NCBI GenBank assembly: GCA_017449065.1
Contig: JAFSKF010000002.1
Coordinates: 62,001-126,000 of the forward strand
DNA: 64,000 nt
Source: Bacteroidales bacterium
Lineage (GTDB): Bacteria > Bacteroidota > Bacteroidia > Bacteroidales > UBA3663
Direction: 5' to 3'
This document shows, one piece after another, positions 10,020 to 14,580 of the stretch. Position numbers and translations under genes: made by a program. How positions within the stretch are numbered: position 1 is the first letter of the stretch; each line of letters opens with the position of its first letter. The notes beneath the pieces were generated by a model that was not told the origin of the DNA, searched no databases, and saw nothing but the letters and a program-made list of their open reading frames with translations.

Positions 10020-11822
10020 TTAGTCGAGTTTCAGTACTGCCAGGAAAGCCGTTTGCGGCACTTCCACGCGTCCGATCTGCTTCATGCGCTTCTTGCCTCG
10101 CTTCTGTGCTTCCAGCAGTTTGCGTTTGCGCGAAACGTCGCCGCCGTAACACTTGGCGGTCACATCCTTGCGCACCTGCTTGATGGTTTCGCGGGCAATG
10201 ATCTTGGCTCCGATGGCGGCCTGGACAGCCACATCGAACTGCTGGCGTGGAATCAGTTCCTTCAGTTTCTCGCACATGCGTCGGCCGAAGCGCTCGGCAT
10301 TATCCACGTGCGTCAGCGTGCTGAGGGCATCTACCTGTTCGCCGTTCAGCAGGATATCGAGCTTGATGAGTTTGGACGGACGGAAGTCGTGGATGTAGTA
10401 ATCGAACGATGCGTAGCCCTTCGAGATGGATTTCAGTTTGTCGTAGAAGTCGATTACGATTTCGCCCAAAGGCAGGTCGAAGTAGATTTCCACGCGGTTG
10501 CCCGAAATGTATTTCTGCTCCACCAGAACGCCGCGCTTGTCGAGGCACAGCTTCATGATGCCGCCAATGTAGTCGGTTTGTGTGATGATGGTGGCTCGGA
10601 TGTAGGGTTCCTCAATATGTTCGATGGCCATGATGTCGGGCATACCCGACGGGTTGTGAATCTCCTTCATGACACCGTGCTTGTCGAACACATGATACGA
10701 AACGTTCGGCACTGTAGTAATCACATCCATGTTGAACTCACGCCCCAGTCGTTCCTGCACGATTTCCATGTGGAGCAGGCCTAAGAATCCGCAACGGAAA
10801 CCGAAGCCCAACGCCAACGACGATTCCGGGACGAAAGACAGCGAAGCATCGTTCAGCTGGAGTTTTTCAAGCGAAGTGCGCAAGTCTTCGTAATCTTCCG
10901 GGTCAATAGGATATACGCCGGCAAACACCATTGGCTTCACCTCCTCAAATCCGGCAATCGCCTTTTCGCAAGGGTTCTTCTGATGGGTGATGGTATCGCC
11001 CACACGCACTTCGCTCGAAGTCTTGATGCCCGAGCAGATGTAGCCTACATCGCCGCAGCCCACTTCCTGCCGGGGCTCCATGTCCATGCGCAGAATGCCC
11101 ACTTCGTCAGCATCGTATTCCATGCCCGTATTCACAAACTTCACTTTGTCACCTTTGTGCAAAGAGCCGTTCACGATCTTAAAGTATCCGATAACGCCTT
11201 TGTAGGAATTGAAGACCGAGTCGAAAATGAGGGCTTGCAGCGGAGCATTAGGATCTCCCTTGGGGGCAGGCACACGTTCCACGATGGCTTCCAGGATTTC
11301 AGGCACACCCATACCGGTCTTGCCCGATGCACGCATAATCTCCTCCCGCTTGCATCCCAACAGTTCGATGATTTCGTCCTCGACCATTTCCGGCATGCAG
11401 CTGTCCAAGTCGCATTTGTTAATCACCGGAATAATCTCCAGATCGTGCTCGATGGCCATATAGAGGTTCGATATGGTCTGGGCCTGAATACCCTGCGTGC
11501 CATCTACAATCAGAAGGGCACCTTCGCAGGCGGCAATGGAGCGCGACACCTCGTAGCTGAAGTCAACGTGACCCGGAGTGTCGATCAGATTCAGCACGTA
11601 TTTGCCTGGGTCGGCCTGGCTGCCGGTATAGTTGTAGTCCATCTGGATCGCGTGGCTCTTGATGGTGATGCCTCGTTCGCGTTCCAGATCCATATTGTCA
11701 AGTATCTGAGCCTGCATGTCGCGCTCGGCTACGGTCTTTGTGCACTCTAACAGACGATCTGCCAGCGTTGATTTGCCGTGGTCGATGTGGGCAATGATGC
11801 AGAAGTTGCGGATATGCTTCAT
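10020..11822 (-). CDS. lepA: Elongation factor 4 (LepA), ribosome back-translocase GTPase
   Basis: The 600-residue length is standard for LepA. The P-loop AHIDHGKST lies at residues 11-19, followed by RGITIKS, the switch motif DTPGHVDF and the guanine-specificity motif NKCD. The LepA-specific C-terminal domain carries [18 protein letters not shown] and GKKRMKQIG, the basic loop that enters the ribosome. EF4 acts on stalled or mistranslocated ribosomes and affects initiation. A TACCTTTG box lies 52 bases upstream on the minus strand. The antiporter gene follows after 47 bases. Confidence 0.98.
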
Positions 11823-12179: not shown

Positions 12180-12330
12180 GTGTGACAGATGACAGTTGTG
12201 ACAATTAAAAATTGAGGGGTGCAAAACCCTTAATATACTATATAACTAATTGATATATATAGTTATATATAGAATAAAGAAGGTAAGTACCCTCTCAAAA
12301 AACAACTGTCACAACTGTCATCTGTCACAC
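12180..12330. repeat. 151-base near-palindrome with perfect 24-base ends
   Basis: Perfect 24-base inverted repeats occupy 12180-12203 (begins GTGTGACAGATGACAGTTGT) and 12307-12330. The 103-base AT-rich core continues the symmetry imperfectly: TTGAGGGG near 12212 faces CCCTCTCAA near 12297, and CTATATAACT faces AGTTATATATAG around the centre. The whole element could fold into one long hairpin. GACAGTTGTGACA-type repeats are familiar from mobile regions of Bacteroidales. It may be a MITE-like element or an end of the element whose relic follows. Confidence 0.7.
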
Positions 12331-12403: not shown

Positions 12404-12560
12404 ATGCCGAACCTTGGCAAGGGCACAGAATGTATCAAACTCCTGCTCTCGCAGGCCTCAAAAGACAATCATGAAGCCTTCGTTCCGATGTTTTTCCCCG
12501 TGCTTGGCGCACACCTGAGCGGCGCGGAATTCCAGTACCCAGACTCCAAGAGCCGACACG
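12404..12560 (+). pseudogene. Relic of a VirE/DUF3987-type mobile-element gene
   Basis: The frame from ATG 12404 encodes IKLLLSQASKDNHEAF, then VPMFFPVLGAHLSGAEFQYPD. From memory, this resembles an internal segment of the large VirE/DUF3987 primase-like proteins of Bacteroidales mobile elements, where a SQ.SKD.HE..VPM.FP.LGAH.S..EFQYPD stretch precedes a P-loop. The similarity stops near 12560, after which the frame runs as low-complexity sequence into a terminator hairpin. No P-loop is present, so only a short piece remains. The assignment rests on pattern memory and should be treated as tentative. Confidence 0.4.
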
Positions 12561-12617
12561 TGCACACTCCCGGGACCCGCACGTGCAGCCTCCGGAGGCA
12601 GCAAAACAGCAGAATTG

Positions 12618-12662
12618 AAAAGGCATCCAACTGCTACGACGGGCGGCTGGATGCTCTTTTAT
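12618..12662 (+). terminator. Terminator upstream of the AT-rich two-gene module
   Basis: GCATCCAACTGC (from 12623) and GCGGCTGGATGC (ending 12654) form an imperfect stem followed by TCTTTTATAG. It separates the mobile relic from the promoter at 12704. Confidence 0.55.
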
Positions 12663-12703
12663 AGAGGTTCCTTATTTTTTTACAGAAGATTATGAGAAAA
12701 AAG

Positions 12704-12735
12704 TTTGGTTATTTCCAAAATAGTTCATACCTTTG
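12704..12735 (+). promoter_or_regulatory. Promoter of the two-gene module
   Basis: TTTG at 12704-12707, a 20-base spacer, then TACCTTTG at 12728-12735. This is an exact match to the Bacteroidetes housekeeping promoter form. The first ATG is at 12756, about 13 bases after the predicted transcription start. Confidence 0.75.
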
Positions 12736-12755: not shown

Positions 12756-13232
12756 ATGGCACAATTTGTTATAACGGTTAACGATAGGGTACATTTTCCC
12801 AGTCTCAGGACAGCCATTAGTCAACTTAAGGGAGTTGAACGGGTTGTTTTGCTTCACGAAGAGAAAACCTCGGAAAGCAAAACAGCAAGAGAACTGTATT
12901 GGGAATTGCAAGAGCGGGCAGATAGTCTTTCACAACTAATTGATGGATGGGACGGAGCAGACAGTAAGGCTATTGCACCAAAGACAATTCATAAATTCAA
13001 ATCTGCGATTGCCAAAGCGAAAGAGGAAGAACTTCAGGACTGGATTCTCTTTCCGGATGCACGTGGTTATCTTTATTTTGACTATACGGGCAATAACGCT
13101 ATAGCAGGGATAACTATGACAGAAAGTCAACTTATCTATTTTTATAAAAAAGACGGGCAAACAATTTTAAATGATAAAGCCTCGTTTACATCTCGGAATT
13201 TCCTTTCCATTTTAGCTCGTATTCATGACTGA
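12756..13232 (+). CDS. GWDG-motif protein, first gene of an uncharacterised pair
   Basis: A 158-residue soluble protein. Its centre carries LSQLIDGWDGADSKAIAP (about residues 61-78), followed by a helix and LQDWILFPDARGYLYFDY. The end is rich in beta strands and aromatic residues. I recall a widespread set of small proteins with L..GWDG.G..P, an alpha-helical stretch, then a P..DG.I.L.W strand, often encoded just before a second small gene of the kind found here; no function is known to me. The stop overlaps the next start by eight bases, so the two are translationally coupled. The gene is AT-rich compared with lepA and the LicD gene, which suggests acquisition by transfer. It has its own strong promoter. 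Confidence 0.75.
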   Translation: MAQFVITVNDRVHFPSLRTAISQLKGVERVVLLHEEKTSESKTARELYWELQERADSLSQLIDGWDGADSKAIAPKTIHKFKSAIAKAKEEELQDWILFPDARGYLYFDYTGNNAIAGITMTESQLIYFYKKDGQTILNDKASFTSRNFLSILARIHD

Positions 13233-13692
13233 ATTATTTCCTCAGATTGTTTCTGATAAGGAAGATGTCGCAAGAATTATTTTTTCACCTTCCTACATAT
13301 ATAAAGGACACGTGTCCCCTTCTGCATTTCGATGGAATATTCTTCCGAGCGGTCATGTCGAAGATTACATTTCTGTTTTGAGAGGAAATCCTGATGTATT
13401 AAACAATCAGACAAAACACTTTAAAGCGAGAGCAGCTGGAGATGTGCGTTACGGCTACGCCCTGCTGAAAGTAAAGAGCATTAGAGATATTAGTGATGAA
13501 GTCATCAACAGTCAGGTGGATGTACTTTCTTTTCCAAGCAAGAGTTATCCAAATCATGCAGGAATCGTGGTCGAAATCGGCAAAGAGCGGCTAAATGCAC
13601 TTACACCTGTAACACCGGAAATAATGATTATACAGAAAGAACTTGCATCAAAATGTAGTGAAATTACCAAGTTTGAAGAAACGGAGGAGTAA
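13225..13692 (+). CDS. Partner protein of the GWDG pair, unknown function
   Basis: A 155-residue protein without signal peptide or membrane segment. It contains FSPSYIYKGHVSPSAFRW near the start, GYALLKVKSI in the middle, and VDVLSFPSKSYPNHAGIVVE near residue 105. From memory this matches the scheme of a broad family with HP.(V)..G.VS..AF near the start and P....HA.I near the end, seen next to GWDG proteins in several phyla. Conserved histidines and serines hint at an enzyme or nucleic-acid role, but none is proven. It overlaps the first gene by eight bases and ends 18 bases before the LicD gene. It is AT-rich, like its partner. Confidence 0.7.
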   Translation: MTELFPQIVSDKEDVARIIFSPSYIYKGHVSPSAFRWNILPSGHVEDYISVLRGNPDVLNNQTKHFKARAAGDVRYGYALLKVKSIRDISDEVINSQVDVLSFPSKSYPNHAGIVVEIGKERLNALTPVTPEIMIIQKELASKCSEITKFEETEE

Positions 13693-13710: not shown

Positions 13711-14580
13711 ATGGTATCATTAAAATATAATCCGCCTGCCGGTTTTTTTCTCGAAGAGACCCGTAACGGCTACACCATTTCGGCCCACATGAAGCAGGTC
13801 TGGGCGGTTCAGCTGGATCTGTTGCAGGAACTTCTGCGTGTGTGTGATGAGCATGGCCTGAAGATTTTTGCAGATTCGGGGACGCTGATCGGGGCGGTGC
13901 GCGACAAAGGCTTCATTCCTTGGGACGATGACATCGATATGTGTATGCTGCGAGAGGATTACGACCGGCTGATGCAGTTGTCCGATGCCTTCCAGGCTCC
14001 GTATTTCTTGCAGTCCATCTACACCGATTCGCACTACAATCATCGTCATGCGCAGCTGCGGCGCACCGATACCTTGGCGCTACCGGCTCATTTTAAGGGC
14101 AAGCCGCGCTACAACATGGGGATTTTTGTCGATATCTTTGTGCTCGACCGTATGCCCAACACCCCGCGAGCTCTGAAGCATCATTATGCTGCCGTTGCAT
14201 CGGCCAAACTGAAACTCAAGATTGTCACCAAACTGACGAAGCGATTTCCGGAATGCCTGTACCGGTGGTGTCGGAACCATACGCATCTCTTGAGCGACCG
14301 GTATTGGTTCGAGCAATATGAGCAGCTGATGCGCAGTGTGCCCGAAAACAAGAAGTCTCTGTTGGGCTGCCTGATGTGCCTGCGCATGAATGTCCCTCTG
14401 AAAAGGTTAGCATCCTACAAGGAGGTGGTGATGTTGCCTTTCGAACATATTCAGATGCCGTGTCCGGCTGGCTACGACGAAGTGCTTCGCGTGGAATACG
14501 GCGACTACATGACACCCGTCAAGGCACCCACGCATCACGGGAGCATGAGATTCAATGTTGATAATACCCAAACACTTTAA
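13711..14580 (+). CDS. LicD-family phosphotransferase, surface glycan decoration
   Basis: A 289-residue protein of the LicD family within the nucleotidyltransferase fold. It has the family core FADSGTLIGAVRDKGFIPWD (residues 53-72) and the acidic metal-binding DDDIDM just after. LicD enzymes move a phospho-alcohol such as phosphocholine from a CDP donor onto a glycan. The start MVSLKYNPPAGF, followed by MKQVWAVQLDLL, is typical of Bacteroidetes members. The next gene starts five bases after this stop. With the TagD/TagF-like genes on the opposite strand, the donor here may be CDP-glycerol or a relative rather than CDP-choline; that is inference. Confidence 0.9.
   Translation: MVSLKYNPPAGFFLEETRNGYTISAHMKQVWAVQLDLLQELLRVCDEHGLKIFADSGTLIGAVRDKGFIPWDDDIDMCMLREDYDRLMQLSDAFQAPYFLQSIYTDSHYNHRHAQLRRTDTLALPAHFKGKPRYNMGIFVDIFVLDRMPNTPRALKHHYAAVASAKLKLKIVTKLTKRFPECLYRWCRNHTHLLSDRYWFEQYEQLMRSVPENKKSLLGCLMCLRMNVPLKRLASYKEVVMLPFEHIQMPCPAGYDEVLRVEYGDYMTPVKAPTHHGSMRFNVDNTQTL

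Follow-up and report, generated by a model that had tools for sequence, protein, structure and literature searches.

Two small overlapping genes lie between lepA and a LicD-family gene on a Bacteroidales contig, and the question is whether they form a functional module and what such a module might do. The window, the whole stretch of 64,000 nucleotides that was analysed, comes from a draft genome of 3.15 Mb (G000) that contains one copy of the module. The features at the locus are the following:

12756-13232, + strand: gene A, 158 amino acids, carries GWDG; proposed to bind B, as its antitoxin or an adaptor
13225-13692, + strand: gene B, 155 amino acids, carries NHAGI; the proposed effector, with a predicted fold like that of ADP-ribosyltransferases
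12704-12735, + strand: promoter with TTTG (12704-12707), 20 nucleotides and TACCTTTG (12728-12735), 20 bases 5' of gene A
12181-12203 and 12307-12329, no strand: perfect 23-nucleotide inverted repeat enclosing 103 nucleotides; association with the module unproven
12404-12664, + strand: fragment-like open reading frame of 86 amino acids, outside the working module

The coordinates of the reading frames, read directly, give an overlap of A and B of 8 bases (ATGACTGA). This agrees with the preliminary description, which had also correctly placed the GWDG motif in A and both PSYIYKGHVSPSAF and PNHAGI in B. A low GC content had been noted for the pair and was confirmed, since A and B together have 39.5% as compared to 51.1% in the window, 53.7% in lepA and 52.2% in licD. 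Such a low value was reached by 3 of the 631 stretches of the same size. The left flank is lepA (10020-11822, - strand) and the right flank is the LicD-family gene (13711-14580, + strand; PF04991, 1.7e-43), so that the pair borders on a gene cluster for surface polysaccharides. No third gene is present beside A-B in the window copy.

A TTTG element followed after 20 nucleotides by TACCTTTG is the promoter form of the Bacteroidota. The canonical promoter that had been ascribed to the pair is of this type and can be read directly in the sequence, where the motif occurs 3 times on both strands of the whole 64 kb. In the 0.9 kb between lepA and A, no intact gene was identified. The arms of the inverted repeat (TGTGACAGATGACAGTTGTGACA) form a strong hairpin at 12181-12329 (RNA fold z -12.65); the repeat has a single copy in the genome and is missing from 20 relatives. 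The 86-residue reading frame had no match in Pfam, resembles the N-terminal piece of a larger protein and has a partial second copy at G000:C8:19317-19400. It is probably the remnant of another element. The mobile-element debris that was first described beside the pair is therefore plausible, and no family match confirms it.

The pairing of the two genes was analysed in their relatives. In all 29 examined loci with both genes, A was found directly 5' of B on the same strand, and the gap ranged from -22 to +11 nucleotides in 27 of them. The two exceptions are L013 (152 nucleotides) and L045, which has an uncertain called start; the ambiguous locus L048 was left out of the count. Since 23 of the 29 loci came from the search with B, all with A upstream, the use of A as a query does not explain the pairing. 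When A was the query, an intact B was present in 9 of 10 loci. In the remaining one (L011), A is intact and B is cut to about 39 N-terminal residues. No intact B without A was seen among the loci examined.

The distance matrices of A and B in the Bacteroidales set correlate with r = 0.79, a value reached by none of 2000 permutations. In profile-profile comparisons the A families of all loci joined (E 1e-4 to 9e-12), and so did most B families: Bacteroidales with Balneola-like at 1e-10, with the TIGR04255 type at 2e-8 and with the COMM-like type at 3e-5. The negative controls of A versus B gave E 0.03-0.76. As both genes have paired and conserved homologues, they are true genes and not chance reading frames. 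The proposal of a module is upheld by the adjacency of the two families in every locus with both. The two small soluble proteins form a real module with translational coupling, whose pairing and context are established. It has the layout of type II toxin-antitoxin systems, with two small, coupled, always adjacent genes and a sporadic occurrence.

Among 393 genomes of the order, 5 contain a relative of B; the 14 genomes of congeners contain none. The neighbourhood of lepA is variable among the congeners, and in G008, G009 and G010 the genes met on the lepA side are LicD or glycosyltransferase genes, with A-B missing. B relatives also occur in assemblies that are by name rumen and gut Bacteroidales (goat, sheep, yak and uncultured Prevotella), and wider profiles detected B relatives in further classes of the Bacteroidota. 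Outside the Bacteroidota the evidence is PDC-M32, a candidate defence system that has been reported from Sinorhizobium prophages (PMC12429752). The two-part scheme that had been noted for other phyla occurs in other Bacteroidota classes and, via PDC-M32, in other phyla.

The Bacteroidales loci are mostly bare pairs between ordinary genes such as atpD, glycosyltransferases and glycoside hydrolases. A defence-island setting, which had been expected, was not observed: the Bacteroidales loci examined are lone cassettes with no recognisable defence islands. A tblastn search of plasmids and phages with the window proteins found no relative. Hymenobacter plasmids were reached with a consensus as the query, and the conclusions drawn from them rest on the retrieved sequences. 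A match on a viral contig (L003) was rejected as a stretch within a phage protein of 1558 residues, and is no true viral relative. The weak matches L014, L017, L040-L044 and L046 had E values near the limit and no A neighbour; they were inspected or judged to be chance, and dropped. At L011 (588-1860), the intact A and the truncated B are followed by a SocA/Panacea-domain gene with a small partner, so that one module has decayed next to another toxin-antitoxin-like module.

The searches of Pfam, NCBIfam and PHROGs gave no match above the cut-off for either protein. Neither A nor B is a known housekeeping enzyme by the Pfam and NCBIfam searches, and the module proposal stands in this respect as well. 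For B, no family in Pfam (PF01885 included) or in PADLOC appeared at E up to 1. A matched the C-terminal third of PADLOC PDC-M32A (5e-6, profile positions 243-335 of 375) and no other PADLOC model. This match is weak yet recurrent, as relatives of A give the same one. A guilt-by-embedding screen yielded the PDC systems, which are candidates and for the most part unvalidated (PMC12988326). PDC-M32 is one of the unvalidated ones. The system had been put forward as undescribed; this does not hold in full, since the candidate PDC-M32A has a C-terminal domain related to A.

In true PDC-M32 loci an A-type gene is directly followed by a small B-type gene, as in the window, and the two are coupled by a 4-base overlap. 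The true member L049 matches PDC-M32A over its full length (2.6e-155) and PDC-M32B (6e-54). A is a homologue of the C-terminal third of PDC-M32A, whereas the N-terminal domain of about 250 residues is absent from window A (158 residues against about 375). PDC-M32B is of the same length class as B and has the R, AF, LSV, H pattern in common with it. The profile-profile comparisons were weak for window B with PDC-M32B (E 0.008) and for the window-type B with the Hymenobacter B (E 6e-4). The link of window B to PDC-M32B and the Hymenobacter B is weak by sequence and is also drawn from the shared pattern and the gene order. The PDC-M32B profile had no match in the source genome. Since the two profiles that define PDC-M32, the two-domain PDC-M32A and PDC-M32B, do not fit the window pair, A-B is not PDC-M32.

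The fold of B was then predicted from 20 relatives (pLDDT 88.5, pTM 0.85) and compared with solved structures. With the VIA aligner, ranks 1-7 were all ADP-ribosyltransferases (ARTs) with Z 7.7 to 5.1, a range below 8 in which, as the aligner warns, a common structural arrangement can be the cause. Four archaeal KptA/Tpt1 entries gave Z 7.3-7.7 (rmsd 2.9-3.0, 92-95 residues), followed by EcPltA (of the ArtAB/pertussis-type A subunits), pertussis toxin and AvrPphF ORF2 with Z 5.5-5.1. The best match (Z 7.7, rmsd 2.9, 95 residues) covers KptA residues 85-180, which is nearly the whole catalytic lobe. Rifampin ADP-ribosyltransferase, at Z 3.5, ranked no higher than unrelated SMC heads (4.1 and below); the SMC-head rows were discounted as partial matches. 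Foldseek against the PDB and viral models gave nothing significant (best E 0.17), and searches of solved structures by sequence or profile with B and A returned chance rows only. The profile-profile comparison of B to KptA with hhalign, whole or with the catalytic lobe alone, gave no signal and stayed below the shuffled controls, so the ART assignment is drawn from the predicted fold. In the model, a strand (14-19), a strand (49-53), a helix, a strand (77-82), a helix, a strand (97-102) and a strand (111-118) follow each other, one to one in the order of the KptA catalytic lobe. By this prediction, B likely has an ART fold.

Three residues of B stand at the places of the ART motifs or at the last strand:

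13273-13275, + strand: Arg17 in strand 1 (14-19), the place of ART motif I; 24 of 27 sequences in the aligned column
13372-13374, + strand: Ser50 in strand 2 (49-53), the place of ART motif II; 27 of 27
13555-13557, + strand: His111 of NHAGI at the start of strand 5 (111-118); 26 of 27, Tyr in L026

In the other three B sequences (L010, L038 and L039) the arginine is shifted one residue on. ARTs have R or H on strand 1 and S or Y on strand 2; Arg17 and Ser50 are on these strands of B, an equivalence by element order and not by coordinates. The catalytic glutamate of the classical motif III, found in the R-S-E and H-Y-E classes, is absent and His111 is there instead. With the model as the guide, R, S and H are predicted to occupy the expected catalytic-motif positions, and R, F, S and H are near-invariant at 20-35% overall identity. 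Because of the histidine in place of the glutamate, and the tyrosine in L026, B may be inactive or may bind a nucleotide without transfer of ADP-ribose.

How such a pair could work is suggested by known systems. CmdTAC, DarTG and RES-Xre also have a small protein of the ART fold, which is predicted for B, in one operon with a small partner of its own. A-B differs from the ART-type toxin-antitoxin systems in its R-S-H instead of H-Y-E residues and in its order, with the partner first and the ART second. CmdTAC consists of an mRNA ADP-ribosyltransferase toxin, an antitoxin and a SecB-like chaperone; the antitoxin and the chaperone hold the toxin, which is freed when a phage capsid protein binds the chaperone (PMC11618068). 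It is the nearest worked example by behaviour to an effector B that is kept in check by its co-translated partner A, the most economical reading of the pair. CmdTAC includes a SecB-like chaperone gene, whereas the window has none, and no CmdTAC model matched in PADLOC. In CmdTAC the toxin also depends on the antitoxin to fold. A-B is neither KptA nor CmdTAC, and by analogy it may function in the manner of ART toxin-antitoxin pairs.

We propose with moderate confidence that A-B is a mobile conflict module of two genes, with B as the ART-fold effector and A as its cognate partner. The cassette would move between genomes horizontally. A would be made first, translationally coupled to B, and keep B inactive or position it. 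B, a small single-lobe protein with a predicted ART fold and the R-S-H signature, would be the effector and modify some target in the cell with the help of NAD+ or a related nucleotide. In other lineages A is fused to or joined by exchangeable third proteins, and these would sense a trigger or add a second effector. The obligate pairing, the joint divergence, the sporadic presence, the low GC, the predicted fold of B with its near-invariant R, S and H, the likeness of the A model to small partner proteins, the broken B beside an intact A in L011 and the HEPN-type and PDC-M32 partners speak for this conflict module. The Foldseek E of 0.17, the Z values under 8, the missing sequence link to KptA, the exchange of Glu for His, the low Z of the TriTu-like match of A and the lack of visible defence islands count against it. 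The pair probably serves in self-poisoning or in defence against viruses, as a device that is so far undescribed. We infer that B is catalytic and toxic, that A inhibits it and that the module acts in phage defence or addiction. We found no experiment on any member of the A-B family in the literature.

Third genes were observed at a number of loci. A TIGR04255 gene is added at L002 (3e-22) and L015, a DUF3467 gene at L052 (1.4e-6) and a DUF4209 gene on the Hymenobacter plasmids L030 and L031 (PF13910, 3e-9). The DUF4209 protein also corresponds to PADLOC PDC-S39 (2e-16). The HEPN RNase superfamily, of which DUF4209 is a member, has an R-x4-6-H motif (PMC3710099); this motif is present as RNRVAH in L030 and RNRIAH in L031. 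A protein of 214-225 residues with a weak COMM-like match was found at L010, L038 and L039, and a TPR-like protein downstream of A-B at L036 and L047. At L049-L051, A is fused to an N-terminal domain (PDC-M32A). Since the third genes vary between lineages, an A-B core with exchangeable partners is suggested. In analogy to CmdTAC, we infer that variable third genes around a constant core would fit a trigger or a second effector.

Some further details of these loci were recorded. In L030 (1540-4336) and L031 (1612-4420), the DUF4209 HEPN gene is directly 5' of A-B, and B is unannotated in both records. In two rumen genomes a 359-residue protein with a C-terminal zinc ribbon is encoded upstream of A-B (L023, 1129-2208; L024, 2062-3141) and is a possible further type of third gene. 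L048 (234-1857) has a TIGR04255-like gene, an A-like gene and a reading frame of 122 residues (PDC-M32B weak, E 0.01), and is possibly a more distant variant.

Tentatively, A-B could be the common core of a modular family of bacterial immune systems that has gone unrecognised, in which a minimal Glu-free (R-S-H) ART and a WDG-type partner carry interchangeable attachments. PDC-M32, the PDC-S39-linked loci and the bare pair of the window would then be variants of one system, and TIGR04255, DUF3467, DUF4209/HEPN, the COMM-like protein and the PDC-M32A N-domain would be its sensors or second effectors. If true, an unvalidated defence candidate would gain a mechanism by NAD+-dependent modification, and the TIGR04255 neighbours, the GWDG proteins and PDC-M32B would be joined into one system. 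An ART with a histidine for the catalytic glutamate would be directly testable. The smallest form, and the easiest to study, is the one in rumen-type Bacteroidales, where the pair stands bare with proteins of 158 and 155 residues.

The varying third genes, which include a candidate HEPN RNase, also bear on another explanation. B might be an ART-fold pseudo-enzyme that serves as a nucleotide or NAD+ sensor or as a scaffold, so that A-B is a recognition core and the harm is done by a separate effector such as the HEPN protein or a fused domain. The glutamate replaced by histidine in B and the fusion of A to a further domain in PDC-M32A are in line with this. Such a separate effector is not present in the window copy, which like most Bacteroidales copies is a bare pair without a third gene, and the near-invariance of R, F, S and H at such low identity is as expected of an active site. 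We consider a pseudo-enzyme unlikely.

The roles of the two proteins could also be reversed, with A being toxic or regulatory and B the antidote. Both are small and soluble, the gene order alone is undecisive, and A has invariant residues of its own:

12945-12956, + strand: residues 64-67 of A, the GWDG motif; all 16 sequences of alignment A10 share its W and D

The model of A (pLDDT 83.9) has a predicted C-terminal alpha/beta part that resembles several small binding or partner proteins. It aligned to chain 7zhm_C of TreTu-TriTu, a complex of an ART effector and its immunity protein (Z 5.8, rmsd 2.4, 72 of 87 residues), and also matched the type III secretion chaperone SycT. These likenesses are suggestive, with the TriTu-like Z of 5.8 below the trustworthy level; A-B has no sequence relation to TreTu-TriTu, and B is not a secreted Rhs toxin. 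A diverges faster than B, also in length, as antitoxins and adaptors often do. The enzyme-like predicted fold and the polar invariant residues belong to B and not to A, and L011 keeps A intact with B truncated. A reversal of the roles is thus distinctly improbable, and in the preferred conflict module A stays the partner of B.

KptA/Tpt1 is an RNA 2'-phosphotransferase and the nearest fold match of B, which aligns over 95 of the about 97 residues of its catalytic lobe (PF01885). KptA also is without the classical motif III glutamate. B differs from it in having no detectable sequence similarity, no first lobe and other invariant residues. That A-B is an ordinary KptA-like RNA or metabolite processing pair on cassettes with no conflict role is hardly probable, as B has neither a PF01885 match nor the N-terminal RNA-binding lobe, and the module is sporadic even between congeners, joins B obligately to A and is related to a defence candidate. 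A KptA gene of the Bacteroidota was seen at L056 (916-2028), directly after a macrodomain gene and a NADAR-like gene; this is an ADP-ribose-handling cluster unrelated to the window.
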